From positions 8,748,779-8,812,778 of the forward strand of contig JAJEKV010000059.1 in NCBI GenBank assembly GCA_021234155.1: a DNA stretch of 64,000 bases, given 5' to 3'. The notes beneath the pieces are model-generated. The model saw nothing but the letters and a program-made list of their open reading frames with translations. It ran no database searches and had not been told where the DNA came from. Below, piece by piece: positions 9,288 through 60,400 of the stretch. Origin of the DNA: Isoetes taiwanensis. Taxonomy: Eukaryota; Streptophyta; Lycopodiopsida; Isoetales; Isoetaceae. The position numbers and the translations under genes were made by a program. Each line of letters starts with the position of its first letter. Position 1 is the first letter of the stretch.

Positions 9288-9288
9288 A

Positions 9289-17041: not shown

Positions 17042-17639
17042 AGATCAAAACACTTTTTATTTCTTCTCAAATAGGCTCAATCAGCCATATTTTTGCTCTC
17101 CATCTCGATCTTGATTAATCAAGCTTTACAAGGTCGATATTTCCAAGTAGCATATAGAGCACATGAAGAGCTTAAAGGCTCAAATAGTGCGCTTTCACCA
17201 AAGATCACACAAAACAAAAAATTTCTAGTCGGGTTTGGTAGGTTTCAACTGTTGCTTTTGCCCAATTTGATTTTGTGACGAGCCTGGCGTGTTAGCAGAC
17301 ATGTATTGTGAGTGCTTCATCAATCTGTACGTTTGTAATCAATAACATTAATGAAGAGTTCTTTTGAATTAACCATTGCTTGGGGAAAATGCATACGCAA
17401 TATGTACGGAAGTTTGTACACACGAAGACATAAGTATGAAGGAGGAAGGGATTGAGCTTTTGGTGCAAAGCAAGAGACAAGTAATGAAAACATGAAAGAT
17501 ATGGAAAGGGAAAATGTTTTAATGCTAAAAAGATGGAACTGATGTATGTCTTAATACATATACACCTGTATGTATTAAGAGCTGCAAATTGGATCTTGAT
17601 TAAGTCAACAGTCTTGCTTAAGATTAATGGTCTGGTCTG

Positions 17640-32100: not shown

Positions 32101-33015
32101 ATGAATATGGTGAATCAAGCAGGGCGCCTACCTTTGTCGATGTTCGTTCAGGCAAAGGGTAAGCCTTGTCTTCATATTTCATCTTAATTGTTGCTTGTTT
32201 CTTTCATGTTCTGTTTAAGCAGTTTCAGCGAAACCGGCTAGCATGAATACATTTTAAGACTTAGAAGCATGCTTCAAATTCTATGAAACATTGTTGAAAG
32301 ACTTCACAAAATTGGTATGCTAATAACACAATCTTTGGCAGGTGCCCATCTGCAAACTTTTCCAGGAAATCTTAAAATGAGCTGCAGTCTTCAAAACCCT
32401 ATGTTTATGTCAACAAATACAAGTTCTCCAAGGAGGTCTGTATTCGTAAAAGAATCTCGGATGAACAAATTATTATTATATCATATTAAGTACATAAAAT
32501 CAGATTTACGATTGATTGACCATGGTTTTAGACTTCATAATGCACTTGTTTCTGATGATACATCTATATTAGAGGTTACCCCCGAACATTTAGATGGATT
32601 AAGTTTGGAAAGATGGCAGGCCTGCTTTACCTATATAGTTGCTTTGGGTCTCACAGATGAAGAGGCTGCAAAGGTGCTTGGAAAGGCATTTGGACATATA
32701 AGATCCCCTTATTGGGGACAAAATAAAGAGAAAGCTGTTCCTGAACCTTCTATTCCTTTGGAAATAATAGATTATCTAAGAAACCTAGGTCTTAATGACA
32801 TAGATTTGGGAGAACTGCTTAAAAAGTTTCCTGAGATACTAGGTTGTGACCTTGAGGATCTGAAAAAAAATGTAGCAGATTTGGACAGTAAATGGGATAT
32901 TACAGGGAGAACGTTAACGAATCTTATTCTTCGTAAACCACACGTTCTTGGATACAATGTTGATTATGGTGGCGACTGCATGGTTGAATGTACCGCTGCT
33001 GGGCGTAGGTTTTAG
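32101..33015 (+). CDS. mTERF-family organelle protein, two exons
   Basis: Exon 1 is 32101-32158; intron 32159-32341 has GTAAGC at the donor and TTTGGCAG at the acceptor; exon 2 is 32342-33015. The joined frame is 243 residues. The N-terminus is Ser- and Arg-rich with few acidic residues, which suits a plastid or mitochondrial transit peptide. The second half holds mTERF-like repeats: IDYLRNLGLNDIDLGELLKK, FPEILGCDLEDLKKNVADL and LTNLILRKPHVLGYNVDYGG. mTERF proteins bind organellar nucleic acid and affect transcription or splicing. The protein is short for the family and belongs to a small plant subgroup that ends GDC-x-x-x-CT. Here the end is CTAAGRRF, which looks like the family's CTRCW-RF read through two compensating indels. 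An in-frame ATG at 31987 would add 38 residues and is the alternative start. Confidence 0.75.
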
Positions 33016-34765: not shown

Positions 34766-34770
34766 CCTAT
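34766..34770. other. Target site duplication CCTAT (left) of the LTR retrotransposon
   Basis: CCTAT here and CCTAT at 56946-56950 directly flank the TG...CA ends of the element. This is the 5-bp duplication expected of a gypsy-type integrase. Confidence 0.9.
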
Positions 34771-35952
34771 TGCTGCCATGCTATGGCAGTATGGAAGAAC
34801 AAAACATGTTTTGAAGACTAATCCTCACACTTTGATCTGAATTTTAAGGCACAAGAAGAGTGCTTCATTGAAGGCTTGAAGAGCAAGGAGAGGACAATTG
34901 ATTCAGGTCACATAAATGAGGCAAAAGGACAATCAAGCAAAAGGAAGAAGACCCCTATAAGATCTCTGGGTATGTGATCATTTGAGTTCTTGGCATTATT
35001 GTACACTTTGATTCCCATTCCATATCTCCCATACCTTCCACCACCATGAAATACCCATGAGATCTTGAAATTCCATGCCTACAACTCATTTCCAAGTCAA
35101 ATTTGGCCTTGAAGAGTTTTTCTAGTCAAAACTACACTTTCAAAAGTCATTCACATGCCATGAGCTCACCACACCACCTCTACATCATTCAAAGTCCAAA
35201 ACTTCACTTGACTTGGTCTTACATGTGGTCAAAAGGTCAACACTCCCTCCTTCAAAGTTAAAGAAGAGAGAAAATCATAAAATCCCTAAGGGAAACATTC
35301 AAAAGTCAAGCTTGCCTAGAAAATGCCAATGATTTGCATTTATAGCAAAATTGGCCCATGGAAACCACATTGGAAATGCCAAGTCATCTCACACGTCACC
35401 CTCCTTGCCATGTCATGTCATGCACTTATCTCCATGATCATACTTCAAATTTTTGTCAAAAGCCTTCAAGTTACATTCATAAGATGACACATCACCTTGC
35501 CACATCATCATTAGCACCTCCGCATCACCATCCACATGGCACACACATCATGTCCACATCACTTGAGGTTTTGACTAGAAAAATTATTCTAAGCCAAGTT
35601 GTTTGACACATCACCATCCTTATTTGCCATGTCACCCCTACCTTGCCATGTCATTACTCTCACATGCCACATCACATCTTTTGAGCCATTTCTAAGCCAA
35701 GCTTGAAAATGCCCATTCACAAAACAAGATTCCAGAATCTTTTAGAGCATGAAAAAAGATTCCCATTGCAAAAAAGAAAATAAAAAAACTCATTTGTTTT
35801 GGCCATTAAACTTGCTTCATTGGGAAATGTGCAATAGTCCATGGGGCAAAAAATATTTCCTATCTATCCCCCCAGCCTATTTTTCTTCCCAGCCAATCTC
35901 CCCATGCCGTGTGGAACATCTGGGCGTGTGGGGCGGTGGAGGTACCGAATCC

Positions 35953-35984
35953 CACGTGGATATTGCATGCAATAATTATAAATA
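35953..35984 (+). promoter_or_regulatory. LTR promoter: G-box and TATA box
   Basis: CACGTG (35953-35958) is followed 20 bases later by ATTATAAATAAA. The same pair occurs in the 3' LTR. G-boxes bind bHLH and bZIP factors in plants; activity here is inference. Confidence 0.5.
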
Positions 35985-37199
35985 AAGAATTTGTTATTCC
36001 TTATATATCTTGGCTTGCCAAATCTAAATTTGCATGTGGGATAAATCGTCGAAGATTTTCAAGAACCCTAAACCTGTGAATGCCAAGATCCGGTCGATTG
36101 AGCCAAACTAACTGTGCAATCATACTCCAAACCTCTCGAATAACTTTGTTTAATGTCAAGAATGCATCTGGGAAACAAAAAGACAGAGAATTGAATGGAA
36201 TTGATCAAGAATGCAACTGAACAGGGGATTCACAAAAGAGGCTTTTCGACAGAAGAAAAATTTGAGGGCTTTAAGGCGAAGAAGCGATTGTTTGCTTTGA
36301 AGAAGGATCGGCTTGCTTGATTGATGCTTGATTCTGACCTCCACACTTGATTTTCAGTTTGGATTATTGACTAATTCATCTGAGTTGATTGATTGTCTAC
36401 CTATTTGATCCTGTGCCCAAGACTCAGAGCTTGGGATTCATGTTATTTGCCTTTGTGTACCTGATTTAATTGAAAATCCGACCCTTGTTGTTGAATTCTT
36501 AGTGCTTCATATTGATCTATTATCAAAAAACAATTTGTTGGCATTGTTTGCCTATTGCATTCTATCCCAGTAGTTTGACACCATTTGCTCGACATCTAGG
36601 CATGCTCCACGTAAGTATTATTCAACTCCATTGATTGCCCGAACAACCAACACAAGTTACTTGAATTATTTATCTCAATTTACCATAGCGTAGGTCAGCA
36701 TGTGGACGATAGCAAAGTATAAAAAAATCCCTAGAGCATTCGAGTCATTGCCTTATGCATGGTTCTTGCATAAACAATAGAATTTGCATGCATTCTTCCC
36801 AGAAGTGGATCTGCTTTCACATCTGTTCATGAGCTGTAGCAGTTAGTCCAAGAAAATTCAAAAAGTGAAAGATCTCGACTTCTATTTGCCAAGAGCACCA
36901 AGGCCTATTGAGTGCAGACTTATTCGAATAGACAAAAAGTTTCAAAGCTAAAAAAAAGTCTTAGTAGCAAGATCGTAAATCAAGCTCTCTGCCGGGGATA
37001 TCGACCAAAAATTGACTCGTCGGAATGTCTTTTTTATCTATCCGGCCTTGTCAAATTCCCCCACTTTTGCAAAAGAAGATAAATGTAGGTTCTGAGCAGC
37101 TCTGCAAGCAAGAATCACAAGCAAAGCTCAGATGGTTTGCATTTGGCAAGCTTTTCTCTGAGACAGACTTTTTATCCTTTAGGGAAAGCTGTGTCAAAT

Positions 37200-37231
37200 A
37201 ACCATCATTCAATTAAATTGGGATTATGTCT
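37200..37231 (+). repeat. Left terminal inverted repeat (32 bp, perfect)
   Basis: AACCATCATTCAATT followed by 17 further bases to ..TATGTCT. It is identical to the complement of 49283-49314; similarity stops abruptly after base 32. Confidence 0.95.
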
Positions 37232-38139
37232 ATTCCAAAATCGCTACCAGATAAGCTATTTATTGACCATTATATTGAATTAACCACACTTTTGCACTGA
37301 GTTCATTTTCGGGCTAGGAAGATGCATTTTATGTTGAAATGCAAGGGCATCCAAATATTCGGTCCAAATGACCCATATTATGAAAGAATGTTGGCAATAT
37401 AAAAAGTAGGAAATTGCTTATTAATTAGTTATAATCACCGAAGCGACAACGAAATCTAAACATTGAAATTGTAGTGTTTTACGAATAAATAACGACAAGC
37501 AAGTTGCTTTCTGAGCGTAGATTTTGAAGGGTCAAATCGCTGTGGCGATTTTATTCCCATAAATAACGTATTATAGTGGAACATAAACTTTAAAAACTAA
37601 TCCAATCATCGTCGACGGTGTAGCGCAGCGGTGTTTGAGATCCTTTCGATCATGAACAAACCATGCTCTGATTCCATATAAGATGGATTACAACATCAAA
37701 GGGATCGGGATAGAAGCGGACGGGATTCATAGCAACGACATCAAGCCAGATCCTGAAGTTCTATTTCTAGCTCGCGGCACTGCAGAGGTCGTGGTTCATC
37801 TGGCGGTGTAATAGAATGTGCCATAATAACAAGCGTATATGGAAGCCGTTTATGGTTTGCCAATTTCATGCATACGTATTTATAGACACCTAAATTATTG
37901 ACGGTATATACATACAAATTATTGCAAGTATAGCAAACCATACACGTAATATAAAAAGAACAATACGCATACCTAAACCAATAATGCTGATATAAGAACA
38001 CAATATATATTCGAAAGAGGTTGGTGTAAAGTATATTTCATATTCAAAACTTTTGGAAAGTGTATTTCCTGTATACATATATATATATATCAAAAAGTTC
38101 CCTTTCTAGAACGATCTTCTCTAGGTCCCCTCAATTTCC

Positions 38140-41100
38140 CTGTCCGATTAAGTTGCGTATAGTGTTTGTATCTCTTCGACCTTTTTCACCGTAGCTATTT
38201 CTTGCAAGATGCTCGACAAAACGAAGCAGGAAGTCATCTTTGTCAAAATCCTCGATGATAGGATGGTGGATTTAGTGATCGCGGATCGATTGAAGCAACA
38301 CTTCAAGGCGTCATCATCAACTATAATGATGTCTTCCTTCTCCCGAACGCCCAAGTCATCCATCATGTCGCTCAAGCATTTCACAAATATTTTTTTACAG
38401 AGGATCCTTTGGGTTATTGAATGACTTACATTTGCTCTGATCCCAAACAGATGCCCAATCTCTATGTAACTCAGGAACTACTCTCAAAACTTCCTGTATA
38501 TTTCTATTCTCCATCGACGACCAAATTGCACAACGAAATAAAAAGAAAGCTTGGTCTAACATCTCCTTCGAGATCTGGTCACGGATATACCCATTTCAGA
38601 TATGTCTCAAATGGTTTCGCTCATACCATGATAAAGGAAATTGTGCTTTAGGTAACGTTTTGCAGAGCACTCCATTCAAATCGAACACCAGAATTTTGGA
38701 GGAAACTGGATTAGGTCTGTAATAATAAAGCACACACTTGTGAGACAAGGAGAAAGAAAATTGAAATCGCCGCTTGGCGCGATTTTCAATCTATTGGAAT
38801 AATTGAAATCGCGCTGGTTTTTCAATCTCGCTTGAAGAATTGAAATCGCGCTGGTAGCGATTTTCATTTCTGTTTGAATAACATACCTTTCGGTTCTGTT
38901 CAACATCCGCAATGATGAGCTTACTCTCTACTGCCTTGATTCGCCGTATGACAGACCACATCACTTAGTGTTTGAACTATGGTTGATACTTCATTACTCT
39001 TTATGCTAACCTGACTCGAGCTTTCCGAATCCACTGTATCATCTAGGATTTTGTCTTCTTCTTATGCTACCTACATCCACTTCGCTTCGGATTTTCCAAT
39101 GTGATTGGAAGGATAGGCACGCCTCGGCCGCATAGTTAAAAGATTTTTGCTTGTCGATATTCTTCTTTATGCCCTCTATATGCTTTCTCATTTCTTCCCG
39201 CTCTGCGACGGATCTGCGAGGTAAAAGCTGGACTTAGAGCTGGAAGCTTTATTTTTGCACTACCTAGCGGACCCCTAGGTGCCACCTCTAGCACTTTCTC
39301 GAAAAATATGAGAAAGTCCTTGGCTTGACCATCGGAGACCACACTTTGGCATTTCCTAGCTAGCTTGAGCTTCCCCCCGACATAACCTCCAACATGAAAC
39401 TCCCAACACGTAGACTCTAACAGGCGTATAGGCTTCAATCAGAAAACTTCGAAAGGGCAAAAGAAAACCCGTACTTATTCAGCCTCCCCTTATCTTGCCA
39501 AGGTAGCTCATACTTGATTGGTGAATTAAGGGCGAGGGTCGACCAGATTTTCTTCTTCCTCTTCCTCTTCCTCTTCGTCCGGGTCCACATCCACATCTGC
39601 GGTCCCTTTCCCTTTGTCTTCGCCCAATTGGATTCGACATAAAAAACATTCTTCAATAGGGGTTCATCTAGCCGATAGCGCCAAGCAATCTTCTCACCTT
39701 CCTCGGTTTCCCCTTGAGTCTTTCATATTCTTTATCATCCATAATGGCTATCATAAGGACTAGCACATGTGAGATCTTACTTTTCGGTACTAAACTCACT
39801 ATCTTTGTTTTCATCTATCATCAACGCTTGCCTCATCACTTTAATGCATTCGACATCATTTGCGGCAGCTAGTGCATATGCGTAGGAAATGTCGAAGTGG
39901 CAACCGTCACGATAGTATAATGCATCTCGATCGTCAAACCACCTTGCATGTGTTGAAGAAGGTGCTTTGTAATCATCCCATGTCCATCTCGTACCCCACG
40001 GCTATCAAGAACAAATAGAGTGATGTCGGTTGGCCCTTCACCTACCTCCGGCATGGCACACTTATAACCAAAGGACACCTTATAGAAAAAAGGAGACTGC
40101 CTCTCGCCGTCTTCTTCACCAAAGCAACTTTTCTTTTTTTAGGTCGACGCAACTTTTCGTGGTGAATCCCCTTAAGAGTTGCCACATTCTTCGCCTTTTG
40201 TTTGCTTCACAAAATCTTTTGACCAAAATACATATTTCTTAATGTCATCATTAGATACGTTGTACTTTTGCATTAAGCCTATCTCTGATAACATCATGTC
40301 TCCTGAGAGCCTTTGCAGTTCTTCACCAACAGCTTTTTTCAGGACTTTCATATTCTTTATCGATTCGCATGCATCTTCGAAAGATGTCAAGTGCTTTGCT
40401 GCAGACGTTTTCTTGTAGATAACTTCCTTCATGCAACTATCTAGAACGAGATTAATTCGCATCATCCAATCCTTGTGCCTTTCTCATTTCGTGATACCTA
40501 TATCAAAAATAGACGATATCTTGCGAGGAAACCCTCGCCATACGAATCGCAACTTCTTTTCCTAATAGGCGCCCCAAAATTTCGTTCCACTTTTCCCATA
40601 CCGGTCGGAAGAAAAACAATCTTGCGTGCATCTTTTGGCACCGCTTTGCTCTTCCGTACCGGCTTTGTGCATCCCCTTTTTCTTCTTTGATCTAGTGGCC
40701 TTGTTCTTGTCCTGTATTATGGTTTGGCACAGTGTCCTTTCTAGTAATTTGAATTCGGCACTCTTAGATTGCCCTTGTCTGGTCGGCATTGGTTTTCCAT
40801 ATTCGATCCATTGGTTACGAGCGTGCCGCAACTGCTCCACATACGGACTGCAAAATATGGGCCGTTAGATAAAAAAAAAAAAAAAACAGTCGCGAAAGTA
40901 ACAATATAAAACGCCGCCAGCGCCACAGATTAATCACGATTTACAAAACGCCGCTGGCGCCGATTTCTTCATGATGAAGAATTCGCGCCAGCGCCGTTTC
41001 TTGTAAATCCGTCACACAAATAACAACAAAAAGCCAGCGCCGCTTTTTGCTAATCACGATTTAGAAAATCGCAGCCATATGAAGAAATCGCGCCCGGCGC

Positions 41101-42440
41101 GTTTCTTTGTGAATACGTGATTAAGCTTAAAACGCTGGCGCGCGATTTGGAACGCTATGTGTGGAACATAAAATACCTTTTGTACAGGAATGTCTTTCCC
41201 ATGTCATTCAATGGCGCCGATTTCGCTAATTACTGCTGGCCGCTGTGGAGCCACCGAGGAATCGGCAATTTCGATTTGAATACTGATCTATAGAATAACC
41301 GATTTCCGCTTTTTGTGCTTGATCGATCAAAACCTTCGCCTCCACCGGTCGCCGCGCCATCTATTATCATGAAGTGAATATCGAGGTTGCCAGTTAAATC
41401 TTCAAGTTTATTCCACATCAACACCTTCTTCGTCTTCATATCAAAAGGCACCACATCTGCCGGCATTGGCACCTGTCCTGGGTTTTCTATCATGCTGTCG
41501 ACTATTTCCATTGCGTGCTGCTTGTCAAATCTTCTGCTGACAAACATAGCCTTCGTGGACCTGAAAAGCCTGTCGACATGGATAGGATGCGTGAAGCTAA
41601 GGCCCAGTGGATACTTGTCAGCATATTTCTTGAGTTTGCTCATGGCCTCTAACCTGCCTCGCCTTTGTCATCATCACTAGTCATATCTGTAATGCCTAGA
41701 ACGTCTGGTGTTTCCCTGGCTCTAGAACTTGCATCTTCCTTCTCCTTTAAAGCTTGTAGGTACAGACTAGCTGACGGCCTTGTACTGATTGCTCTTCTCA
41801 CAGCTGAGAGACCTTGACATATTTTTTTTGGTGTCAATAGATCACCACCTGACCAGCCAAATTTGAAGAGGTTATCTGCGGCCTCATCCGCTTCTTAGGG
41901 CGCCTCTTTAAAGGAACTAGCATCGCAGCGAATTTAACTTCTTCAATACTTTTTATTTTTCTCGACCCGCTTCAAGTAATACGAACAAGAAGAATCGCCC
42001 CCCGTTTTCTTCGCATGTGATCGGTCATACCTTGTTTCTTCATTTGATCTGCTTCCTTAACTCTAGACATGAAAATCGATCTCGGTCTTTCCGCTAGTCT
42101 TGAAGATCTCCACATACCATTCGAGCCCTCTGGTAGATCTTCTTTCGACATGGAGGCTCTACCCGAGCCTTCATTATTTCGGCCAGATCGCCAATGGTCA
42201 CAACGTGTGCCAAATCTGCAATCGATACATCTTCATCCGTTTTGGTTTTTTCTCAGGCAGATGTCCTCGACCTGCTTGCGCAGGCTTTTCTTTTCACATT
42301 TTTAGAAGATCCCGAAGTTACAATCATGTGGTGAGTAATGAAATCGCTAAATGCCAGTTTCATAGACGCCTTACTTTCAAAAACATAAATTGTACAGGGA
42401 AAGTAGCAGAGACAACCAAAAACCACTCATAATTATAAAT
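38140..42440 (-). pseudogene. Decayed multi-exon gene: ParB-like, possible methyltransferase, FCP1-like HAD
   Basis: Read on -, it starts with a basic coiled region with ADLAHVVTIGDLAEIMKAR (about 42230-42100). 41643-41230 is the longest clean exon: a ParB-like N-domain pattern RRFDKQHAMEIVDSMIENPGQ followed by DIHFMIIDGAATGG, where ParB-type domains have y-v-i-dG-xHR. 40840-40172 is charged, with LLERTLCQTIIQDKNK and WSKDFVKQTKG. 40078-39136 includes DITLFVLDSRG and EFHVGGYVGGKLKLARKCQS, a faint likeness to a SAM-binding G-x-G loop. 38720-38200 is FCP1-like: KILVFDLNGVLCKTL (DxNG nucleophile motif), CAIWSSMENRNIQE, VWDQSKC and IIIVDDDALKC. Stops and frameshifts lie between and within blocks. 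It lies inside the TIR transposon, opposite to the transposase. The FCP1-like call is firmer than the ParB-like one, and the methyltransferase call is weak. Confidence 0.5.
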
Positions 42441-44580
42441 CACTTTGTAAGCTGCGTTCTTAAGAGGGGACCTATGCACACTTCTCTTTTATAAGAGACA
42501 TACTAGGCTACAAAAAGACTTGTCAAAAGAACGGAGAATACAAGTAAAGACTTACACTCTACATTATACAAAATGGAGAATTGTTCCAACTTTAAAACAT
42601 ATCGGAGTAAAGGAGAAGATTATAACAAAAAAACACACAAAACAAGGTAGTAAAAGCAAAAGAAAATGACACGTAAAACAATATGAAAGGTAGACAATAC
42701 ACAGAGACACGATACACGTAAAATACACAGGTTGAAAAACATCCTAGAAACCTAACAATAAAAGGGACACAGAAATCAATTACAAAACAAAAACAGATCA
42801 ATTACCTGAGGCGCTTGTTGGATCAAAACTTTCTGCTTGTTCAGCAGCCTCCAGGCTTGGGATTTGTGCTTTAGTCGTGCCGCCCACCTCTACCAACACG
42901 CCTCGCCGTGGCATCCTCTAGACGCCATAGAACCGCAAGTGATAGTATGAGATCTGGGTTTTGGTTTAAACTTATATGTATGCGTTCATAATCTAGGCCG
43001 CCGATTTACAAATAAATTCAAATTCGCGTCCTTTTAAATTTATACCGCCTTAATTAACCGCCCGTCCCGCTCATTTACAAATTTAAATTGTGTTTTTCTT
43101 TTTAGTGCAATTTCAAGATAACAATTAATTATTAATTTCAAGAAACGCATATGTGGCAATCTACTACCACCTAATCGGCCACCTACTACCAGAGCGCCCA
43201 AGATCATTCCTAGTATCGAGGCCCAAGAACAATCGACTCATCGAGCGCCCAAGATCCGCTCGATCCCATTCGATCGATCGAGCCGCCTTCAATCCATTCG
43301 ATCAAGCCGCTTCAATTCCCATTCGATGTCCGCATGAACTATGGTGAATTCGAATGCATTCTCTTGTTCTCAATTTTTCGCCCTCTATTTTTACAATGCA
43401 TTCGGTTCTTTATCGGTGTCCTGAGAAGAATGCTATCTTTTAACAACAAACTTGAAGCCGAGTAGGATTGTGTAAAATCAAGATTTGAATCCAAGTTCTA
43501 TGTGTCATGGTGTTCCTCTTGGAACAAGTTTCAGTAAGATTTCTATTCTAAACTCAATTATGAAGATGAGGCTCTTCCAAGAAGACATCCCGTGGCGATA
43601 CAACAGGAAAGCGTGGGCACATTTGTAGCATGGCCAAAAGAACGTCTGAAAAAGGTATGTATATTTGGATATTCAAAAAAAAAGAATATATCATATCATC
43701 TCATTGATGTTGTGAATTTTGTATTCTTTGATGCTCTTTTAGCCCGATCATATCAACCCCATGAAACTACACATTAATGAAAATATGTAGTTTCTTGGGG
43801 TTGGTCATATAATCGGCCGGAGGGCATCACAGATTCAATGTTTTCGACATTGCATATAAAAAAAAAAAATAAACTAATGACAGAAAAGTATAGTGCAAAT
43901 TGCGCCAGCGCGAAGTTTGTATTCATATTCCAAAAAAAAGTTATGTACATTTCTTCTTCGCAAAAATGCGCCAGCGCCAATTCTTTCTATATCTCTACAA
44001 TATGTCGGTCGTGCCCACTTCATCCGCCCAATCCCAAAGAAGTCCCACCTCGAACCACCCCTCGATATGACAGATCCTCATCTTTCCCGAGGATGTCGAG
44101 TCTCCAAACCAGTGTTGTATCGATCCCCGATACTATAAATCAAATCCTTGTACTTATTTGTTGGCATGAGCCTTACTAAGAGCATGAGGAGTCCGATATG
44201 TCCATAGATGCGATGGAAGTGTACCCATGGCCCCCGATACAAAAGCCGTCTAATGGATTCTCCAACTCTCTTTGAACGTTTTGAACAAAGACACTCAAGT
44301 AATATCTTGTACAGGTCCGTAGTTGATGGTCGCCCGGGAACTAGAACCACCGATTGTATTTGAACCAAAGGTCCATGCATAAGGAAAATCCATGGCACTA
44401 GAACGAGAGAAAGTAATTAGCACAGATCTATTTCATACGCCTTTGGCGCCATTTGTATAGAGCCGTATGAAATTGAAATGCCAACTAAAACGCTACCGGG
44501 CGCGATTTGATTAACCTAGTGGAAAAACGTGAACCCAAAAATAGAAATGCGCCAAGCGATTTCTCCCATTCCAACATATT
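38760..44580. repeat. Dispersed GCGC-rich palindromic motif family
   Basis: Variants of AAATCGCGCTGGCGCGATTT occur at about 38765, 38810, 38845, 40905, 40945, 40985, 41035, 41085, 41130, 43900, 43965, 44440, 44490 and 44555, mostly between coding blocks. A weaker one lies near 37535. I saw none outside the TIR transposon. Confidence 0.6.
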
Positions 44581-44783
44581 ATTCTAACAAAATACATAAT
44601 GCGTAATCACGAAATGCGAGAATGCGTAAATTCAAAAATATAAAGCCGCTTAGATATTGTTTAGTTCTTTATTTACTCCTTGTTTAACTCCTTGTTTAGT
44701 TCAATATAACTCCTTGTTTAGTTCAATATTTAGTTCATTGTTTTAGTTCATTATTTAGAACAGATAGAGGAAGAGCTAGTGAA

Positions 44784-44833
44784 GATCTATGATCTTGCTC
44801 TATGATCTAGATCATAGAGCAAGATCATAGATC
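44784..44833. repeat. Perfect 50-bp palindrome without spacer
   Basis: GATCTATGATCTTGC plus ten more bases is followed immediately by its exact inverse, centred on AGATCT-AGATCT-like sequence at 44808/44809. It can form a cruciform. GATATGA-type microsatellite follows. Confidence 0.9.
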
Positions 44834-45130
44834 GATATGAAATAGAAACGATAGAGTAATATGATATGATAGAGAAACGATATGATATGAAATAGAACTG
44901 ATGCATGTAAAAGTAAATAACATGCTTTATGGAAAATAACTACTTTATGTAAATAAAAGAAATACTAACCCGAAACCTTAAGAAGTGATTCGAGAAGCCT
45001 TAAGAAGCCGAAAAAAGCAATAGCAAAACTAATTTGGAGAAAAAATAATAGCAAATGAGAAGCTTTAACACAAAAACCAAAGTTATTCAAAGTCGAAAAA
45101 GCAAAAAACCGTAAAAACCTTGTATAGAGC

Positions 45131-45905
45131 CTACAAACCTTGTATAGAACCTTGTATTGAGCCGAAAAGCATATAGAAGCCTAAAAGCATATAGAAGCCG
45201 AAGTTTAAAGCGTAAAAGCGTAAAAGCCGAAAGTAGAAACCTTTTAGCCGAAAAAACCTTTGAGCCGAAAACCCTAAAGCAGAAGATTGTAGAAGCAGAA
45301 AAACTCGAAAGCGCAGATAAAAACAGATAAAAACAGATTGTAGAAGCCGAAAGCGCAGATAAAAACAGATAAAAAGCAGATAGAAGCCGAGTTTAAAGCA
45401 GATAGACGCCGAGAAGCCGAGATTGAAGCAGAAGCCAAGTTTGAAGCAGATAATAGAAGCCGAGAAGCAGATTGAAGCAAATAGAAGCCGAGAAGAAATT
45501 GGAAGCAGAAAGCGAGAAATTGGAAGCGCCTGGAATGCCTGGAATTGGAAGCGAAAAGTGAGAGAGAAAAGTTCGAAAACGAATGCTAACTTGAAATAAT
45601 AACTGCTTTCAAAATTTTGTACCGCGCCATTATAACTTCCGCGAAAATTTATTGCACGGGTTAATTGTTTTAAGGACCGCGAGTTTATCCCTTGTAATAA
45701 CAATGTTAAATTTATTATAAGGGTTATTATAGGATACCAAGGTTATCCCTTGTAATAATAAGGTTAAATTTATTATAAGGGTTATTATAGGATACCAAGG
45801 TTATCCCTTTAATGGTTAAGTTAACCTTTTAAGGTTAACCCTCATAAGGGTTATCCCTTTTACAAGGTTAAAATTTATTACAAAGGTTATTATAGGATAC
45901 AAGTT
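45131..45905. repeat. Two minisatellites
   Basis: 45131-45570 is purine-rich with units such as GAAGCCGAAAGCGCAGAT and CAGATAAAAA, and creates long - strand artefact frames. 45706-45905 has about three units of about 70 bp built on GGTTATTATAGGATACCAAG and AAGGTTAAATTTATTA. Confidence 0.75.
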
Positions 45906-46074
45906 ATAAGGCTAATAAGTAGAGGGTTTTATTTATATATAATGTTGAGGAAAATAACTTGGGGAATCCCATTATATAAATAGAATGATCAAATAGAATA
46001 AGACATATGAGGCTTTCATTTATGAACATGTTATTGAGAGGTTATTTGGATATGCTAACTTACTATATATTTTT

Positions 46075-49066
46075 ATGCATTCTAGGTCAATGGCATGCAA
46101 AATGCTAAAAATAAAGCCCCTAATGATGCTTGATCAAGGCAAGGAAAAATCCCCAACTAATGAACATGATGGCCAAGGAAAGGAAAATACCTCAAATGAT
46201 GTTCATGATGGCAAAGGAAAGGAAAAGACTCCAAATGATGTTGATGATGGCAAAGGAAAGGAAAAGGCCTCAAATGAAAAGGATGATGCCAAAGGAAAGG
46301 AAATTGTACTTTATACTGGCCGATTGGAAAAACAAAAGGTCAAGATCCCCGCATGCATGCAAATGTAGAGGCAAGAGGGAGAAGGGATTATTGTTCTAGC
46401 GGATCCTATCAATGCAAAGTGAATGATGAAAGATTAGGGGAGGACAGGGTTAGGTGTGGCAATCTCAAAATTATATGACAATTGGAAGGAAAAGGGTTCA
46501 GCAAACAAGAATGCCTAGCTTGTGTGAAGCAACTAGAGGTTCCAACTATTGTTGCATGGCCTAGGGACAAGATTCAACCTGAGGGGAACTACACGCTTCC
46601 TATAGATGTAGAACCATTGTCAACAATGTTCACACAGTGTAGCAAGAGGCCACTTCCAACTTTCAAACATTATCCCACCAAAAGATGCAAGTCGATTATG
46701 ATTGTTCTCCGGAGCTATGATGAAGGTTAGAGGAGGTGAATGTTGTTGGGCTTCTTGTGTTAGAATGTTCACAATAGAGGAGTTGGTGGGAGCAAGAGCT
46801 ACATATCAGAAACATAAGTGTGATAGGAGGAGGAATTTCATGTACCCCATATTTGGCTATGCAATTCAGGATGAAAGATCAAAGAAAAAAAGATTCCCAT
46901 TGAATGGAAAGTGGATATGTTCAAAAGCATGGATGGATATACATGGAATTCCAACCTCTTTTTGGCACAACTGGCAAAAGAGACATGAAAATGGTAGTAA
47001 AATTGCATTGCATGGGAACACCGGCCCGTAAGGCCTACCTCAAGAACTATAGCCGCAAAAGGAAATATTTGAAAGATATGTGGATTTCAATGCAGAAAAC
47101 ATGCCACATAAGAGTAAGAAGGATGAATAGGGTAGAGTTATTGTTGAAAAGAGATTGCCATCCCATTGTACCCAGAAGAGCATATTAGAGGAAATAAATG
47201 CATTGCTTCGAACTTGGAGTGGCCTCTATATCCCACCAGTTTTAGTAGGCTATGGAATAAGCATTTCAAGCATGTGACCATAGCAACTTCAAACAACTTT
47301 GCAAAGTGCAATTTATGTGCTAAGCTGAAGGAGACACTAGATAAGACTGTGCAACCAAGTCTAAGAGCAAAGATAAGGGAACATATGAAGGACCATATGA
47401 CGTGATCAACTATCATGTAGATCAACTTATTGGATGTGGAGGACCTTATCCGCAATGGAACCTAATAACTATCTATGTATTATACATGATAAAATGGACC
47501 AACGTAAGACTTGTCTTCCACAATTCAAGTACATTCCTAAGTCATGTGGAAGATCATACCCTTGCGATTTCAATGACTGGGGCAATATTGCATGGGCAGC
47601 CTCGCACCTATTATGGCCATTTCAGTTTTAGAGTTGTGGAGTGATGGTCCAGATTTTCACATTGGGAGTATCATGAGGTGTTTAAGAAACTATGAGAAGG
47701 GTTACAATGGTCACCTACAGGATCCTATACTAGCCGTGCACTACATAGTGCATTGTTGGATGGAACCCCTAATAGTATTGAAAAGTTTAGCAAGGCAAGA
47801 TTTAGGAGGAATGGACCTAATGAACATGTTGGAGCTTCAACATCTCGTATAAAACCTCGAGATCTGCCCGTAAAGCTCCTCTTGCAACTAGATAATTGTG
47901 CTGGTCAAAATAAGAATAGGTGGATGTTTTTCTTTCCTATCCTACTTAACAAATTGTGGGTATTTTTGAAAGAGTCAATTTGGGGTTCCTAATGCCCTAT
48001 TACATACTCATGAGGATGTGGATGCATTGTTTGGAAAATATAGTCATGTATTGAGACAAAGCAGACAGCTACCAACTTTCCCAAAGCTATTGGAAATATT
48101 TCATGGATGTACAAATCCATCTCCTATAGGATCTATCATAGAAGAAGTGCCTGATTGGAAGAGTTTTGTGGATGGTTATGCTCTATTATGGAAGGTCATT
48201 CTAGACCTCTTCAATTCACTTTTTGGGTGAGAGAAGGGATTCCAATCATGCAATGGAAAATGAGACCTTCGAGGAGGAGAAGTGGAGAGGTGGGGCAGAA
48301 ATTTGGCGCAGGGATGCAAATGGCAAGCCTATGATACCTCCCCGGTCAACCAAAAGCTCTAAAACCAATCAAGAAGTCAAGCAATTGGGCTTGACTAAGG
48401 ATGGCATCAATGACTACATCAAGCATTGGCAAACTAATTCAGATGAGACTAATCGCATTGATAGATTATTGGAAGAAGGTGATCAACTTGTTGGATGAGG
48501 TAGACACATCCTCGTAACAATTTCTGGAAGGGTGGTTCCCTAAAAGTAAGTGGAAAACATTAGCCGGTGATGAAGATGATGGTACCATTAGTAGCATTGT
48601 GAAGGCATATGCTCCTCCTCAACTGGATAAACACTATGTTGGTCCTAAGAAGGATAGGCCAAAATATCTAGGCATGGATTGTTATGAACCTTCTAACGAC
48701 GTGGAGTGCCACCAATTTGTAGTAGTAAAACCAAAGAGATCTAGAGACCTATCCAAAGTGGTTGGGATGGACTATCTCGGATATTTGCAAAGAAGAAGGT
48801 GATGTTAACTTCAATAAGGTGCGTGTGGAATGGTGGTGTCCAAAGACATCGGTTGAGTAATGTCACCGATAAAGAAAGATATTCAGATTGTTGGACAAAG
48901 AGGTGGAGGAGAAATCCTAGTGATCCCCGATCTTTGGCTAGACATTGAAACCGTATTGTACTCATGGACTCCAAAACTATTCCTAGTAAAACAAATGAGA
49001 GTTACAATACCTCGTGATGTAAGGAATAAGGTTCTCATATCCTTGGGGATGTTGGTGGAAAAATGA
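46075..49066 (+). pseudogene. DUF7869-type transposase-like gene, frameshifted
   Basis: It begins with a Lys-rich tandem repeat (DGKGKEK-type, about 46130-46300). A Cys/Trp region, CCWASCVRMFTIEELVGAR (46740-46800), and CNLCAKLKETLDKT (about 47310-47350) follow. The core has three acidic blocks in the order of DDE/DDD nucleases: IIHDKMDQRKTCLPQF (about 47480), LLLQLDNCAGQNKNRW (about 47880) and HTHEDVDALFGKYSHVLR (about 48003-48055), each typical of the plant and animal protein family I know as DUF7869. The end carries VRVEWWCPKTS (about 48820-48850). Neighbouring blocks sit in different frames, so at least several indels and stops have accumulated. Its place in a TIR element with target duplications argues that the family is the transposase. 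That catalytic role is inference. Confidence 0.65.
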
Positions 49067-49282
49067 TTCTCGCCATATGTATCAATCACTTTTAATAAAA
49101 GTTGTGTACTACTTGAGTTTCATGATATATGATTTTGTAATTTGAAGTTAAGGTGTGAATTTATATTCCCGTGTGTGATTATATGTTAACGTCTATTCTA
49201 GTCTAAGGGCAACAAAGTTACTAAAAAAGTGAATTTAACAAAGTTACTAAAAAAGTGCAATATAAAATTTATCCCAAAATTA

Positions 49283-49314
49283 AGACATAATCCCAATTTA
49301 ATTGAATGATGGTT
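49283..49314 (-). repeat. Right terminal inverted repeat (32 bp, perfect)
   Basis: Exact inverse of 37200-37231. AAAT (49315-49318) follows and then the interrupted LTR resumes with AATTATTT. Confidence 0.95.
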
Positions 49315-49424
49315 AAATAATTATTTAAACATTTTCTCTGGAACTTATGCATTCAGATTGGAAGCAACTTGGAGGTTCTAAACCACTGAGGTTGAAGGTT
49401 TTGCCAGGAACACCTTCAACATTT

Positions 49425-49464: not shown

Positions 49465-50793
49465 ATGGCACCCAGGAGAACTAATGAGGCATCTGAACAT
49501 GGTGAAGCACAGGAAAATCATGAAGCCACCGCCCAAAGACTCATCAGAACCATACAAGCAAATTCAGGTATGCCTTGTCATTATTTTGAGTTGAACATGC
49601 CTATTCCAGTTCCTATCTTTGATCCAAGCATGAATGCTAATAATTTCCTGAAGACTTTTGAAGAGTATTACCAAGAGTATGGGCACAAAAAAGGTCAGTA
49701 AGTTCTCCTCGAATTTAAGAAATGTTTTAAGAATGATGAGGTTAGGGCTTGGCTTGAGTATGTTATAAGTTTAGGTGCCAACTATTGGGATGAATTGGTT
49801 AAAAAGTTCTTGGCATGCTTTGGTAAGCTTTTGGATCTTCAAGATTTGATATTTGAATTGCAAACTTTTCGCATTAAGCATGGGGAAAGTGTGCATCAGT
49901 ATGTGGAAAGGTTTAATCTTTACCTTGTCAAATGCCAAATCAACCAAGTTCCCAACCATACCTTGCATCTTGTGGCATCTTTTATCAGAGGATTGAGCAG
50001 CAGACCAAGAATACACAGGAAGCTGTTAAAAAGTCAAAAGCAAGAAGGCTTTGACACAATACATAAAGCCTTTACTAAGGCTACTGAGATTGCAGATATG
50101 ATTTCCTACTTGCCAGATGACATGCACTCGCCACATGACCCTTTTTTTCCAGATTATAAGCAAGAATACATGGGACCAGGACCTGTGCCAGTTTATGCTG
50201 TCCAAAAAGAAAAGAAAAAGGTAAAAATGGAGGATGTTGAAGCTCCTGCAGCAGATGCGACAGCTGAGATCACCAAGGTATCAGAAGCATTAGTTGAGGT
50301 AACCAAGCAACTCCAAGAGCTAAGAAACTCGAAATTTGAGAAGAAGACCTATCCACCATGTGTTCATTCTTCAGAGACAGACACTCATTCCTCTGATCAT
50401 TGCTGGTATAGACCTTGTACAAAGTGTGGAAAAAGAGGACACTTTGGCAAGGAATGTCCTGTGTGTACTTTTTGTAAGGCTGTGGGACATTATGAAGATA
50501 GGTGTAGTGTGAAAGAATACTTTGCTAGGCAGGAGAAATAAAAAACTAATGAACAAAATGCTTCCATTAGATTTGTGCAGGAAATTGAAGAACAAGGAGA
50601 GATAATGGCTGTGCATACCAAGAGAATGAACACTGCAAAGGAAAAGGAGCCAGCTTGTGCCAATGAGGAAGTTGAGATGGTAAAACACAAGGAAGCAGAG
50701 CAAGTAATGGTTGTGCCTCCTCCACCTGCTCAGAAATATGTACAAAAAGAAAAAGATTGTGAGGATTTCGAGTATTTGCTAAAAAAACTCTAA
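49465..50793 (+). pseudogene. gag, with in-frame stops
   Basis: ATG at 49465. The first 78 codons contain a P-rich segment like the start of plant gypsy gag, then TAA (49699). The same frame resumes with WDELVKKFLACFG and a retrotransposon-gag core (FRIKHGESVHQYVERFN), then KATEIADMISYL. Two zinc knuckles follow: CTKCGKRGHFGKEC (C-x2-C-x4-H-x4-C) and CTFCKAVGHYEDRC (50420-50515). A second in-frame stop at 50539 is followed by a coiled, charged tail to 50793. Gag forms the particle and binds the RNA. The two single stops suggest fairly recent inactivation. Confidence 0.8.
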
Positions 50794-53643: not shown

Positions 53644-54399
53644 GCATGTTGCCCTGAGTTTGTTCAGTTAAAAGCATTTAAGAATTTGTAGGTAGGTTTA
53701 GTTAAGATACCTCATAAAGAAGCAGAAGTAGAATAAAAAGGAAGACAAAAAAAAGGGGGAACAGTGAAAAAAGCAAAAAAAATACTTAGTCAATTCCAGT
53801 TGTTGAATTTTACTTATAAACTTTGGACTAATTAATTTTTCAAGTTCATTCCAAATTGCAAAAGCAAAATCTATGCAAATCACTCAAGTTGAGGAGAAAA
53901 TCAAGTGCTAACCATAGATTCCATGCAGGAACATCTGAATTTCACGGCCATACATCTCATCCTCCACTCATTGCACTACACTTCATCACCCAAAGTTGCT
54001 GCCATTCTCACCACAACAACAACTCATTTGAGCTAACAAATTTTATTTCACATGCAGGTGCATCCTAATATCTTCATTTCACACTCATCTACTCAAGAGT
54101 TGACCTTGTTACACTTGAGAACTCTCCACATTTTTTTTTGCAAACTGCTGTCACATCTCCATCCAGCAGTTCATTTTTCCTAAAGAATTTATTTGTCATG
54201 CAGGTTCACCTAAAAAAACACCTCCATATTCACATTCATAGCATGCTGAACATCATTACTATCTTTGTTTCTTCCAAATCCATTTGTAGGTTCATCAAGT
54301 TGCCAAGCACATTCTCATATTGGCAACTAGCTGGAGTCTTGTTTTCAAGCAACAAGTAAAAGGGCTTGCAGACCAGCCTATTCTTTTAGTTTGGCATAA

Positions 54400-56945
54400 T
54401 GCTGCCATGCTATGGCAGCATGGAAGAACAAAACATGTTTTGAAGACTAATCCTCACACTTTGATCTGAATTTTAATGCACAAGAAGAGTGCTTCATTGA
54501 AGGCTTGAAGAGCAAGGAGAGGACAATTGATTCAGGTCACATAAATGAGGCAAAAGGACAATCAAGCAAAAGGAAGACGACCCCTATAAGATCTCTTGGT
54601 ATGTGATCATTTGAGTTCTTGGCATTATTGTACACTTTGATTCCCGTTCCATATCTCCCATACCTTCCACCACCATGAAATACCCATGAGATCTTGAAAT
54701 TCCATGCCTACAACTCATTTCCAAGTCAAATTTGGCCTTGAAGATTTTTTCTAGTCAAAACTACACTTTCAAAAGTCATTCACATGCCATGAGCTCACCA
54801 CACCACCTCTACATCATTCAAAGTCCAAAACTTCACTTGACTTGGTCTTACATGTGGTCAAAAGGTCAACACTCCCTCCTTCAAAGTCAAAGAAGAGAGA
54901 AAATCATAAAATCCCTTAGGGAAACATTCAAAAGTCAAGCTTGCCTAGAAAATGCCAATGATTTGCATTTAAAGCAAAATTGACCCATGGAAACCACATT
55001 GGAAATGCCAAGTCATCTCACACGTCACCCTCCTTGCCATGTCATGTCATGCACCTATCTTCGTGATCATACTTCAAATTTTTGTCAAAAGCCTTCAAGT
55101 TACATTCATAAGATGACACATCACCTTGCCACATCATCATTAGCACCTCCACATCACCATCCACATGGCACACACATCATGTCCACATCACTTGAGGTTT
55201 TGACTAGAAAAAATATTCTAAGCCAAGTTGTTTTGACACATCACCATCCTTATTTGCCATGTCACCCCTACCTTGCCATGTCATTACTCTCACATACCAC
55301 ATCACATCTTTTGAGCCATTTCTAAGCCAAACTTGAAAATGCCCATTCACAAAAAAAGATTCCAGAATCTTTTAGAGCATGAAAAAGATTCCCATTGCAA
55401 AAAAGAAAATAAAAAAACTCATTTGTTTTGGCCATTAAACTTGCTTCATTGGGAAATGTGCCATAGTCCATGGGGCAAAAAAACTTTCCTATCTACCCCC
55501 CGCCTATTTTTCTTCCCAGCCAATCTCCCCATGCCACGTGGAACATCCGGGCGTGTGGGGCGGTGGAGGTACCAAATCCCACGTGGATATTGCACGCAAT
55601 AATTATAAATAAAGAATTTATTATTCCTTATATATCTTGGCTTGCCAAATCTAAATCACTGTGGATAAATCGTCAAAGATTTTCAAGAACCCTAAACCTG
55701 TGAATGCCAAGATCCGGTTGATTGAGCCAAACTAACTGTGCAATCATACTCCAAACCTCTCGAATAACCTTGCTTAATGCCAAGAATGCATCTCGGAAAC
55801 AAAAAGACAGAGAATTGAATGGAGTTGATCAAGAATGCAACAGAACAGGGGATTCACAAAAGGGGCTTTTCGACAGAAGAAAAATTTGAGGGCTTTAAGG
55901 CGAAGAAGCGATTGTTTGCTTTGAAGAAGGATCGGCTTGCTTGATTGATGCTTGATTCTGACCTCCACACTTGATTTTCAGCTTGGATTATTGACTAATT
56001 CATCTGAGTTGATCGATTGTCTACCTATTTGATCATGTGCCCAAGACTGAGAGCTTGGGATTCATATAATTTGCCTTTGTGTACTTGATTTAATTGAAAA
56101 TCCGACCCTTGTTGTTGAATTCTTAGTGCTTCATATTGATCTATTATCAAAAAAACAATTTGTTGGCATTGTTTGCCTATTGCATTCTATCCCAGTAGTG
56201 TGACACCATTTGCTCGACATCTAGGCATGCTCCACAGAAGTATTATTCAACTCCATTGATTGCCTGAACCGTAAACACAAGTTACTGAATTATTTATCTC
56301 AATTTACCATAGAAGAGGTCAAGATGTGGACGATATAGCGTTGTATAAAAATCCCTAGAGCATTCGAGTCATTGCCTTATGCATGGTTCTTTCATAAACA
56401 ATAGAATTTGCATGCATTCTTCCCGAGAGGTGGATCTGCTTTCACATCTGCTCATGAGTCAGAAAGTGATTAGTCCAAGAAAATTCAAAAGTGAAAGATC
56501 TCGACTTCTATTTGCCAAGAGCACCAAGGCCTATTGAGTCTGGACTTTATTCGAGAATAGGCAAAAGTTTCAAAAGTTCAAAAAAACAGGTCTTAATAGC
56601 AAGATCAGAAATCAAGCTCTCTGCCAGGGATATTGACCAAAAGTTGACTCGGTCAGGAAAGTCTTTTTGATCTATCTGGCCTTGTCAAATTCCCTCAGAC
56701 TTTTGCAGCAAGATAAATGTAGGTTCTGAGCAGTTGTGCAGGCATGAATCACAAGCAAAGCTCAGATGGTTTGCATTTGGCAAGCTTCTCTCTGAGACAG
56801 ACTTTTTATCCTTTAGGGAAAGCTGTGCTAGATAATTATTTGCACATTTTTTCTCTGGAACTTATGCATTCAGATTGGTTGCCTTAAGCAACCTGGAGGT
56901 TCTAAACCACTGAGGTTGAAGAATTTGCCAGGAACACCTTCAACA
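54400..56945 (+). repeat. 3' LTR
   Basis: It is 2546 bp, starting TGCTGCCATGC and ending TTCAACA, followed by CCTAT. It matches both halves of the 5' LTR and keeps the empty target site of the DNA transposon at 56830-56841. Open frames such as that at 54987 are duplicated in both LTRs and are not genes. Confidence 0.9.
55580..55610 (+). promoter_or_regulatory. 3' LTR G-box and TATA box
   Basis: CACGTG (55580-55585) and TTATAAATAAA-type TATA (about 55603-55612), as in the 5' LTR. An additional CACGTG at about 55535 is lost in the 5' LTR. The 3' LTR could drive transcription into 57 kb and beyond. Confidence 0.45.
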
Positions 56946-57453: not shown

Positions 57454-60400
57454 TTATGGAAAAGAAGCCAAAACATCCGCGAGATTTGCTGATGCACTTA
57501 CAACTTGTAACTTTGGCAATAGTTCTCCCATTAGATAATCATTTGTCATATAATTATATACCAAATATGGCTCTACAATCCAAGCATTATTCAAGTTATA
57601 GTAGCACGTACTGTCAACTATAAATGTATTTTGTGAGTGATATTTTCCAAGATACTTATCATAAACCTTTTCCAAGGTTTTAAGAAATAAAGTTGTTCTT
57701 CCTACTTAGGAGTATAATAGAGGATCCAATACGCTCAGTCTGTGACCAAATTAAAGCAAAGGATTTCATGACTGAATCTGGAAGAAATGCAGTTAGAGTT
57801 GATCTTATAATTTCCAAGTCTTGAACCGACGAAACAGCAACATCAAAGACTTGTAAACATGTCTAAATGAAATCAAGAACTTGAGGACGAAGAAATATAT
57901 GTCTGGTTTTGGTCTCAATTGTCATCACATAGTCGATAGGCACATGTCCTTTCGGGCACGAATACATAAGAACTCCATTAAGGCTTAATATCAATAGCTT
58001 CCTATGAACACATGGGTTAGTAATAATACATTCTTCTTTCTAGAGTTGCTTCTACATGGTATATGACATTCATCTAACTTATTTGCATCATTTTCAACCA
58101 CTTCCTTGTCATTCCTATCATCTCCATCACCATGGTCCAACTCAACTGGATGTAAAACTCTAGATTCTTGGAGGTCTCCCACCATAGCCCGACTTGATAG
58201 GAGTATCTTTTAAAGGTCTAGATTCATGAAAGTCATTTGCATCGGTTTCTGACTCAAACCTAAAGAGTAAGAAAACAACTCATTAGTGAAAGTTTACGGA
58301 GTCCAACGCATCAACTTCCAAAATCATTTTCAAAATCATTCGACTCAAACCTAAAGAGCAAAAAAACACGTTAGTAAAAATTCACGGACTTGAGTCCGAT
58401 TACTATCTTTTAAGGACATGAAAAAGAGTAAAGGAGGAGAAAAAAGAGAGAGGATATGCTCACAGTATTTGATGTCTATCGAGAAAGAATGCTGCTGCTT
58501 TTGCATTGCTATCAAGTGGCTTTGCCAACTTGATTAGTATCACCAAATTGGATGGCATCTTCAATGACTTGTTTTTCAATAATGTTTTACTATTGTTTAG
58601 AGGATCTTCATCTTCAATTTTCGTATCATTTTGTTGGCTCTCATACTTTATAAAATTCACAACATCGTATAAAAACTTATTACAAAATACTTTCTCTGAC
58701 TCCTCAACGACAATGGAAATAGCTTTATAACCTGAGCATATAGCTGCTTGGCCGAGCGTACCATGAAGATACCATTCACATATAATAGTTTGTTTCTTAC
58801 AAAAAGAGTTTATGAAATATTTTGCTACTTGGGCCCTCAATGGCACTAATTCACTGACCCTCAATTTATACCCACATCTGCGTAAGAGGAACTATCAGAT
58901 TTTTTTTTTCCCAACCAATTCTATTTTCGTGTTGATTGTAAAGCACATTTCAATGGGATCTTTTCCAAGGTTACATTATTTAGATTGGACTTCAAACATT
59001 CCAGGTTTTGAAATCATAACTATAAGAAGATAAGAGATACCAGTTGAAGCTATATCTGATTTTGATATCACTTGATGCTCATATACTGCATTCACAATTT
59101 GCTTATCACCTTCAATAGAATGAGTTGATGATATCGCCACACAACATTCAGGACCCATTGGAGACAAGATGCACACAGTGTACATACTTAACAATGTCAT
59201 GTCTGAACAATTTCTCCAAAACTGCTCAAAATCATTTGCATCCCATATTTCATTGCTCTTACTAGAGTGCAAATCAAGAAAAAATAAACTTATTGGTGCT
59301 TTTAGAAGATCATTGCCACTTGCCTTTGCACCCTATAGATAATTCAAAAAACTGTACATCTTCGCGATTGAACATTCGACATTGCATTCCCAATTTCTTT
59401 CTGAGCGATTCCTTCACTGTATCTGGCAAATCAACAGTCGTTGTACTTTTTTTCAAAGATGTTTTAAGATAATATGATGACATCGAGATATATATCTTGA
59501 GATCCTCATGAGTTATGTTGAAAACCTTTGCATGCTCCTCATAATCACTATTCAAGTCTTTCACTGCATTTATTTATGTATTGAGTGATGACTTCTTTCA
59601 TCGCCCTCTTCTTCTTATAAGTATTTCCACAATTATCCACATCAACTAGATCATTTCTACCCTTTGGTTTTTCCAATAACACCTCGCCACTTAATATTTT
59701 TTCTGTAAGTGGCGGCATATCATCACCTAAACCCCATTACCCGACCTCATAAAAGGAATATTGAAGAATGTAAGACATGGCCTTTGGGGACGGTTTCTGT
59801 CTAGTCATTTAAATTCTTATCCATCCACCTATCCCATATTAAATTCCAATTCTTCCATGCTTTATCAGAAAGAGTATTAAATTCATAGTGTTCACCAAAC
59901 CTTGATTTATTTGACTCATTCCTCTTTGTCGTTTTACTTATAATAATATATTTCACTAATTCTTCGAATTCCTATATGGCATCCAATAAGATTTAATACT
60001 AGTATGACAATCATTGAGATTATAAATATTAATGAATACTTACCTGCCAAGCAGTGCCTTTTCTAGAATTGCCGCATCCCTCTCCGGGTTTTCCAAGAGC
60101 AATTCATTGATTTCTAGCATGTTTCAACTGATCAACGTATGGACTTCATTAAAAAAACTATAAGCCATTAGTACAAAACCTTATAGGCAAAAAAATATAA
60201 ACTGTTAGTACAAAACCTTATAGAAAAATAGCAAGACTTTATGAGCAAATAACAAGACATAGCATGAAATACCTTTCATAGTGTGAGACAACATTGATGT
60301 TGTTCTAGACATGCAAGGCTAAAGTGCTACTTTTTGTCTCCCCTAATAATACTCTACATTTTCTCATCCCGTAAAATTTTTTCATATCATTAGAGATTAT

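Follow-up and report, generated by a model that had tools for sequence, protein, structure and literature searches.

We have found that a 12,115-bp DNA transposon in the genome of the lycophyte Isoetes taiwanensis belongs to a large family of elements and carries, on the strand opposite its DUF7869 gene (presumably for the transposase), the relic of a probable accessory gene that ends in a NIF domain (PF03031). The element lies in a 64,000-nt stretch of contig JAJEKV010000059.1 (assembly GCA_021234155.1, positions 8,748,779 to 8,812,778 of the forward strand), which we call the window and whose first letter is position 1. This copy is dead and probably belongs to an abundant cut-and-paste family, most likely Sola1-like, whose accessory gene, to which the NIF domain belongs, is of ParB-methyltransferase descent. 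What is new is the accessory gene with its NIF domain; a ParB-methyltransferase accessory gene opposite the transposase has already been published for Sola1.

Borders, copy number and subfamilies

The element is bounded by perfect 32-bp terminal inverted repeats (TIRs) with 12,051 bases between them (the repeats reach 33 bp if one flanking base is counted on each side), and the tetramer AAAT stands on both sides of it, just as the preliminary description of this DNA had it; coordinates are collected in Table 1. The insertion split the 5′ long terminal repeat (LTR) of a retrotransposon. Both parts match the 3′ LTR (94.9% identity between 34768–37193 and 54397–56827, and 87% between 49314–49421 and 56829–56945), which bears out the nesting proposed earlier. 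The 3′ LTR had also been taken to show the empty site, and it does run uninterrupted through the point of insertion; its target tetramer, however, is AGAT and not AAAT, because the two LTRs have diverged, and the empty site is therefore readable without being letter-perfect. Inside the element, near its repeat-rich middle, lies a perfect palindrome with 25-bp arms (44784–44833).

The genome searched comprises 1,658,258,908 bases in 1,110 contigs. With at most two mismatches allowed, the 32-bp end has 1,491 forward and 1,513 reverse matches (3,004 in total), while the reversed pattern used as a control has none. As each element has two ends, half of this number gives a family of about 1,500 elements; if most copies are full length, they add up to ∼18 Mb, or about 1% of all bases. 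Among the 100 end matches listed, 15 forward–reverse neighbours, picked out by eye, lie 12,110–12,849 bp apart; together with five longer pairs (13.8–27.5 kb) they make a sample of 20 end pairs, all with exact ends. Exact 4-bp duplications flank 18 of the 20 (binomial chance ∼1e-37, assuming that one pair in 150 would match by luck); the two remaining pairs (on C284 and C24) have none. The genome search that the preliminary description had proposed thus turned up many further loci with the same borders and, apart from these two pairs, with the same length of duplication. Among the 18 duplications there are 17 different tetramers, and therefore no fixed target motif.

The duplications also bear on the superfamily. 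Their length is 8 bp in hAT, 9 in Mutator, 2–3 in CACTA and 3 in PIF/Harbinger, while Tc1/mariner elements duplicate TA and piggyBac and Kolobok elements TTAA. The 4-bp duplications in 18 of the 20 pairs do not fit the first five of these groups. That the family belongs to some known superfamily other than Sola, either to the integrase-type Ginger or to piggyBac/Kolobok, is scarcely credible: Ginger elements make short duplications too, but neither rve nor another integrase model is among the Pfam matches of the transposase pieces scanned, and TTAA is found in none of the 18 duplications read.

Five further full copies (C106, C30, C139, C85 and C258, 12,110–12,477 bp) align with both arms of the window copy in unchanged order. 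Compared with it in 500-base steps, they are 92–97% alike over bases 9,001–12,000 and 57–95% alike over the first 6,000. The central accessory part (1,460–5,400) of the full copies and of one partial copy (C1018) comes in two types, which are 64–70% alike, and the first 700 bases of these copies stay 80–94% alike. Two accessory types within similar outer sequence look like cassette exchange between subfamilies.

The transposase arm

Two open frames on the plus strand exceed the Pfam cut-off for DUF7869 (6.9e-8 and 1.2e-8), in agreement with the earlier reading of a DUF7869-type gene, and the DUF7869 protein is presumably the transposase of the element. In the window this gene has decayed, and the window copy is dead. 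Over the transposase arm, 15 codon comparisons among copies gave ratios of nonsynonymous to synonymous substitution rates (dN/dS) of 0.52–1.06, as expected of dead copies. DUF7869 genes elsewhere in the genome are longer and often stop-free; in a genome profile search, all 150 loci scored, out of 9,911 rough first-look candidates, were above the family cut-off.

Three motifs are common to two DUF7869 lineages in a four-row alignment: IDGMDQKKT or HDKMDQQKT, LQLDN and HTH[DE]xxD. Their aspartates might form a D-D-D triad, with the third residue a guess. The DUF7869 proteins scanned matched no other Pfam transposase model above its cut-off and had no significant relative in the PDB. Among the viral contigs searched, 10 pattern matches yielded no confirmed relative, and DUF7869 was not found named in the open-licence PMC literature.

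A probable accessory gene on the minus strand

A second gene relic lies on the minus strand at 42128–38092, and the preliminary description was right that the element holds coding sequence other than that of a transposase. Copies C139 and C1018 preserve its parts as long open frames. To judge from their order and strand, these opposite-strand frames, which are conserved in other copies, probably form one gene with the parts as putative exons. The last part is a NIF domain (an FCP/SCP-type HAD domain), which in copy C139 scores 2e-17 (63.8 bits, the cut-off being 21.8). The methyltransferase-like region of the window family has no Pfam methyltransferase match, and the name ParB for the first part is suggested by our reading of a motif and by the published parallel.

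Between the two accessory types, dN/dS was 0.30–0.35 for the NIF part in all four comparisons, 0.15–0.20 for part A in the two of four in which dS was computable, and 0.25 for part C in the single computable case of four, with none of the four computable for part B; these values are rough because synonymous sites are almost saturated and frameshifts fall within the aligned stretches.

The window holds a second, different relic of a NIF and ParB-like accessory gene (57469–60460, minus strand), with NIF pieces at 57469–58015 (‘LLILSLNGVL’), part B at 59804–60145 and a ParB-like ‘VIEGQHSALATQVL’ at 60317–60460.

ParB-methyltransferase genes of other DUF7869 loci

Other DUF7869 genes of this genome have recognisable methyltransferase genes as neighbours. 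On C1034 (locus L001), a gene with an N6/N4 DNA methyltransferase domain (PF01555, 5.4e-15) is divergent to a DUF7869 gene 6.6 kb away; the closest PDB relatives of another methyltransferase gene, at locus L076, are MboIIA (3e-8) and CcrM (9e-8). The profile search of the genome with PF01555 gave 1,444 rough candidates, of which 150 were scored. Between these 150 and the 150 scored DUF7869 loci there are 24 pairs less than 20 kb apart (22 divergent, one convergent and one in the same direction), as against 2, 1, 2, 0, 1 and 1 pairs in six shifted controls. The element around one such pair (C1057:5882408-5890695, 8,288 bp) has 25-bp inverted ends that are 88% alike and an AAAC duplication. The TIRs of the L001 element and the right end of an element on C1055 were not found.

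Five genes, one on C941 and four others of its type, combine a ParB-like region, a degenerate methyltransferase-like region and, by position, a NIF part. The ParB-like motif ‘IAGQHS’ was seen by eye in three of the five, the other two being incomplete at that region. The C941 gene and the window family share part B (tblastn, 5e-7). In profile comparisons, the C941-type genes matched the window-type genes in the ParB-like (2.3e-5) and methyltransferase-like (5.6e-4) regions, and the true methyltransferase genes in the methyltransferase (3.4e-4) and ParB-like (9.6e-4) regions, while four swapped-domain controls gave 0.57–0.73. The accessory gene of the window family is likely, though not proven, to descend from the ParB-METHYLTRANSFERASE gene of other DUF7869 elements, with its methyltransferase part decayed.

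A locus at 8.25 Mb of C1066 was considered as an intermediate, with an intact methyltransferase gene and window-type ends, but is better read as two neighbouring elements. There (C1066:8249068-8252337, L076-L078) ∼0.5 kb separate the methyltransferase gene from a diverged end of the window type (‘AACCATCATTCATTTAAATTGGATTTATGTC’) and a transposase C-terminus. On C941 (443300-456600, L067 and L068), an open frame of 284 aa that resembles, by eye, an FSH1-type serine hydrolase is situated ∼5 kb away from the accessory gene.

A probable transposon lineage of NIF domains

When the genome was searched with PF03031, 3,263 rough candidates came up. Of these, 150 were scored, 49 at 89–196 bits and 101 at 61–85 bits; in the lower group, many have open frames of 200–430 aa. 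In a tree of 23 NIF proteins, which carries a long-branch warning, 11 form one clade (100/100) apart from 12 host-like rows. These 12 are eight high-scoring matches and four of 80–85 bits; since the latter stand outside the clade, a low score does not always mark a NIF of the transposon type. The surroundings were read for five of the 11 clade members (C139, C258, C941, C1040 and C1051), three of which (C139, C258 and C1040) lie between inverted repeats; the remaining six, fragments without context, are presumed to be transposon-borne. The motif is DxN (DxNG[VA]L) in all eight clade proteins in which it is readable (it is unreadable in three), versus DxD in all 12 host-like rows. In HAD chemistry the second aspartate of DxD is the acid/base, and catalysis by the DxN proteins is therefore doubtful.

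One member of the clade sits in another sort of element, 7,759 bp long with 33-bp inverted repeats (TATAGGGTGAAAG...), at C1040:7433392-7441150 (L070, L065, L066). Its NIF gene has a RING-like part (4.7e-4, under the Pfam cut-off) and stands tail to tail with the gene for a protein (‘SDGCSSQFKSARPF...’) that by eye looks like a transposase, is unrelated to DUF7869 and has no Pfam match; the borders of the element as cut show no duplication. DUF7869 was not found in the stretches around the NIF genes of C941, C1040, C1044 and C1051, and among the best-scored matches of each kind (101 lower-scoring NIF and 41 window-type transposase matches) there is one pair within 25 kb. Near the NIF gene of C1051 (7003500-7016900, L063 and L064) lies a 452-aa frame that by eye resembles a LINE-type reverse transcriptase.

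Comparison with Sola elements

Iyer (2011) and Petroll (2025) are said, in a paper that cites them, to have described ParB-methyltransferase proteins from transposons of green and red algae. The available excerpts of that paper (PMC12477816) present these proteins, from algal hosts, as similar to one from a brown alga, and thus as the same accessory type. The brown algal case is Sola1-1_Ec32 of Ectocarpus, a giant Sola1 element of 21.5 kb in which a 1104-aa protein with ParB-like and N4C/N6A methyltransferase domains is encoded opposite the transposase, an arrangement like that of the DUF7869–methyltransferase loci of Isoetes (PMC12477816, as excerpted). An opposite-strand accessory gene is present in the window family as well as in the divergent pairs counted above. 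The methyltransferase is recognisable in the Ectocarpus element and at other DUF7869 loci; in the window family, by contrast, it is degenerate and is followed by a NIF part, a domain that the excerpts of PMC12477816 do not mention for Sola1-1_Ec32.

For the Sola superfamily as a whole, the excerpts of PMC10741241 give 4-bp duplications, a DDD transposase, TIRs of 11–1124 bp and sizes that in some elements exceed 15 kb. The window family agrees in its large size, its 32-bp perfect TIRs and its duplications, which were read in the window copy and in the sampled end pairs and have their counterpart in the AAAC of the methyltransferase-bearing relative on C1057. The same excerpts name moss as a plant host of Sola and call the superfamily not common in flowering plants (PMC10741241); unlike that record, the present family has ∼1,500 copies in a lycophyte. 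The earlier statement that the element fits no plant transposon group was accordingly too strong. The Sola-like superfamily offered there as a guess fares better: it is the best available label, since the 4-bp duplication and the opposite-strand accessory gene agree with what is excerpted from PMC10741241 and PMC12477816, although the label is circumstantial. The transposon works like a Sola1-type element and probably is one.

Fanzor genes are reported from Sola2 elements (PMC3627910, as excerpted). The available parts of PMC10294476 and PMC10541799 contain nothing on the window family. In the open-licence PMC literature, no report was found of a NIF domain in a DNA transposon or of Sola in lycophytes, which is no proof of absence in print.

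Other features of the window

An mTERF family open frame (PF02536, 1e-6) lies on the plus strand at 32287–33012, ∼1.8 kb before the start of the LTR match. Several overlapping tandem-like repeats of ∼1 kb, mostly 72–82% alike, lie at 19861–24520, and a repeat of ∼1.1 kb occurs in three copies that are 81–86% alike (8074–9288, 15860–17042 and, inverted, 62016–63093).

Table 1. Features of the transposon and of the retrotransposon that it interrupts (window positions)
Feature	Positions	Strand	Basis
5′ LTR, left part, split by the transposon	34768..37199	+	match to 3′ LTR
Target-site duplication AAAT, left	37196..37199		direct reading; compare 18/20 other end pairs
Whole TIR DNA transposon, 12,115 bp	37200..49314		inverted ends; comparison with 5 further full copies of 12,110–12,477 bp
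Left TIR, 32 bp	37200..37231	+	repeat search, genome-wide end matches
NIF (PF03031) part of accessory gene, broken; motif FDLNGVL (DxN)	38092..38784	-	tblastn match; open in copy C139, Pfam 2e-17
Degenerate methyltransferase-like region of accessory gene	39247..39952	-	profile comparison
Linker part B of accessory gene	40079..40849	-	tblastn
ParB-like part A of accessory gene	41176..42128	-	profile comparison
Putative transposase gene relic, several frames with stops	46524..49063	+	tblastn with open frames of copies C258 and C139; related to other DUF7869 proteins
DUF7869 (PF25273) part of transposase, motifs LQLDNCAGQNKN and HTHEDVD	47858..48185	+	Pfam 6.9e-8 / 1.2e-8, two open frames
Right TIR, 32 bp	49283..49314	-	repeat search, genome-wide end matches
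Target-site duplication AAAT, right	49315..49318		direct reading
5′ LTR, right part	49315..49421	+	match to 3′ LTR
gag of interrupted LTR retrotransposon	49702..50538	+	Pfam Retrotrans_gag 5.3e-9
3′ LTR with uninterrupted site	54397..56945	+	match to 5′ LTR parts, site alignment

Discussion

Could the gene in the left arm be a host NIF gene that was picked up recently, by Pack-type transduplication, and has no role in transposition? Transposons can carry fragments of host genes, and NIF genes are ordinary in this host, most of the 49 matches at 89–196 bits being host-like. We consider such a pickup quite improbable, however, because the region is present in all six full copies, in two types that have diverged to 64–70% in their central part, and between these types the proportion of nonsynonymous differences in the NIF part (pN) is well below that of synonymous ones (pS). 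The 11 NIF proteins, moreover, group in a single clade that excludes the 12 host-like rows and has DxN wherever the motif can be read, and the NIF gene stands at the position where related elements have the ParB-methyltransferase gene. An undescribed superfamily outside Sola1, which makes 4-bp duplications and obtained its ParB-methyltransferase gene by exchange, is unlikely but deserves some weight. The Sola1 label was drawn from published descriptions, and a NIF gene is also found beside an unrelated transposase-like gene, so that accessory parts may move between transposon groups; yet what the excerpted sources print on Sola or Sola1 fits the family in the length of its duplications, the range of its TIRs, its large size, its divergent gene layout and the type of its accessory gene.

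Several points weigh against our preferred reading, that of a Sola1-like family with a NIF-bearing accessory gene of ParB-methyltransferase descent. The Sola1 label is circumstantial, coming as it does from descriptions and not from transposase sequences, and the third catalytic residue was picked by us from a four-row alignment. The transposase arms of the six full copies yielded no stop-free sense-strand frame of >274 aa, so that any activity of the family is hypothetical. Within accessory type II, dN/dS is mixed (0.30–0.79 in eight comparisons), which is weak evidence for constraint. No significant Pfam or PDB match identifies the ParB-like regions. A direct profile comparison of the window-type with the ParB-methyltransferase-type accessory gene failed (0.24 and 0.085). 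The descent of the accessory gene is likely yet unproven because its profile links run through the C941-type genes, with hhalign probabilities of 22–76%.

If the Sola1-like reading is right, the DUF7869 transposase would bind the 32-bp ends, excise the element and join it to a 4-bp staggered cut in the target; the outcome of these steps is seen in the duplications and borders, from which the chemistry is deduced. The ParB-like part may hold the accessory protein on the element's own DNA, and the ancestral accessory protein would have marked this DNA by N4C or N6A methylation. In the window lineage the marking would have been lost and the NIF part would have taken over. Its targets might be phosphorylated proteins of the host's chromatin or polymerase, which it would bind or act on, and in this way it might keep the element expressed or mobile.

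A more speculative extension, which we regard as possible and somewhat doubtful, is that a host NIF domain was captured a single time, lost its second catalytic aspartate (DxN for DxD) and later travelled, within this one plant genome, from one group of transposons to another unrelated one. It would now stand at the end of a decayed ParB-methyltransferase protein in the Sola1-like elements and, joined to a RING-like part, next to an unrelated transposase-like gene. Self-methylation would then have given way to a phosphatase-like module directed at phosphoproteins of the host, and this, if true, would be a novel means by which a transposon controls its own silencing.

The family represents a large Sola1-like expansion in a lycophyte, in a superfamily that is described as not common in flowering plants (PMC10741241, as excerpted), and with its relatives it places accessory genes of the ParB-methyltransferase type in a vascular plant, the cases in the excerpts of PMC12477816 being algal. 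In the window lineage, a phosphatase-like module has apparently taken the place of one that modified DNA. Should the accessory protein act on silencing or transcription in the host, that could be tested with the many variants that occur naturally in this single genome.

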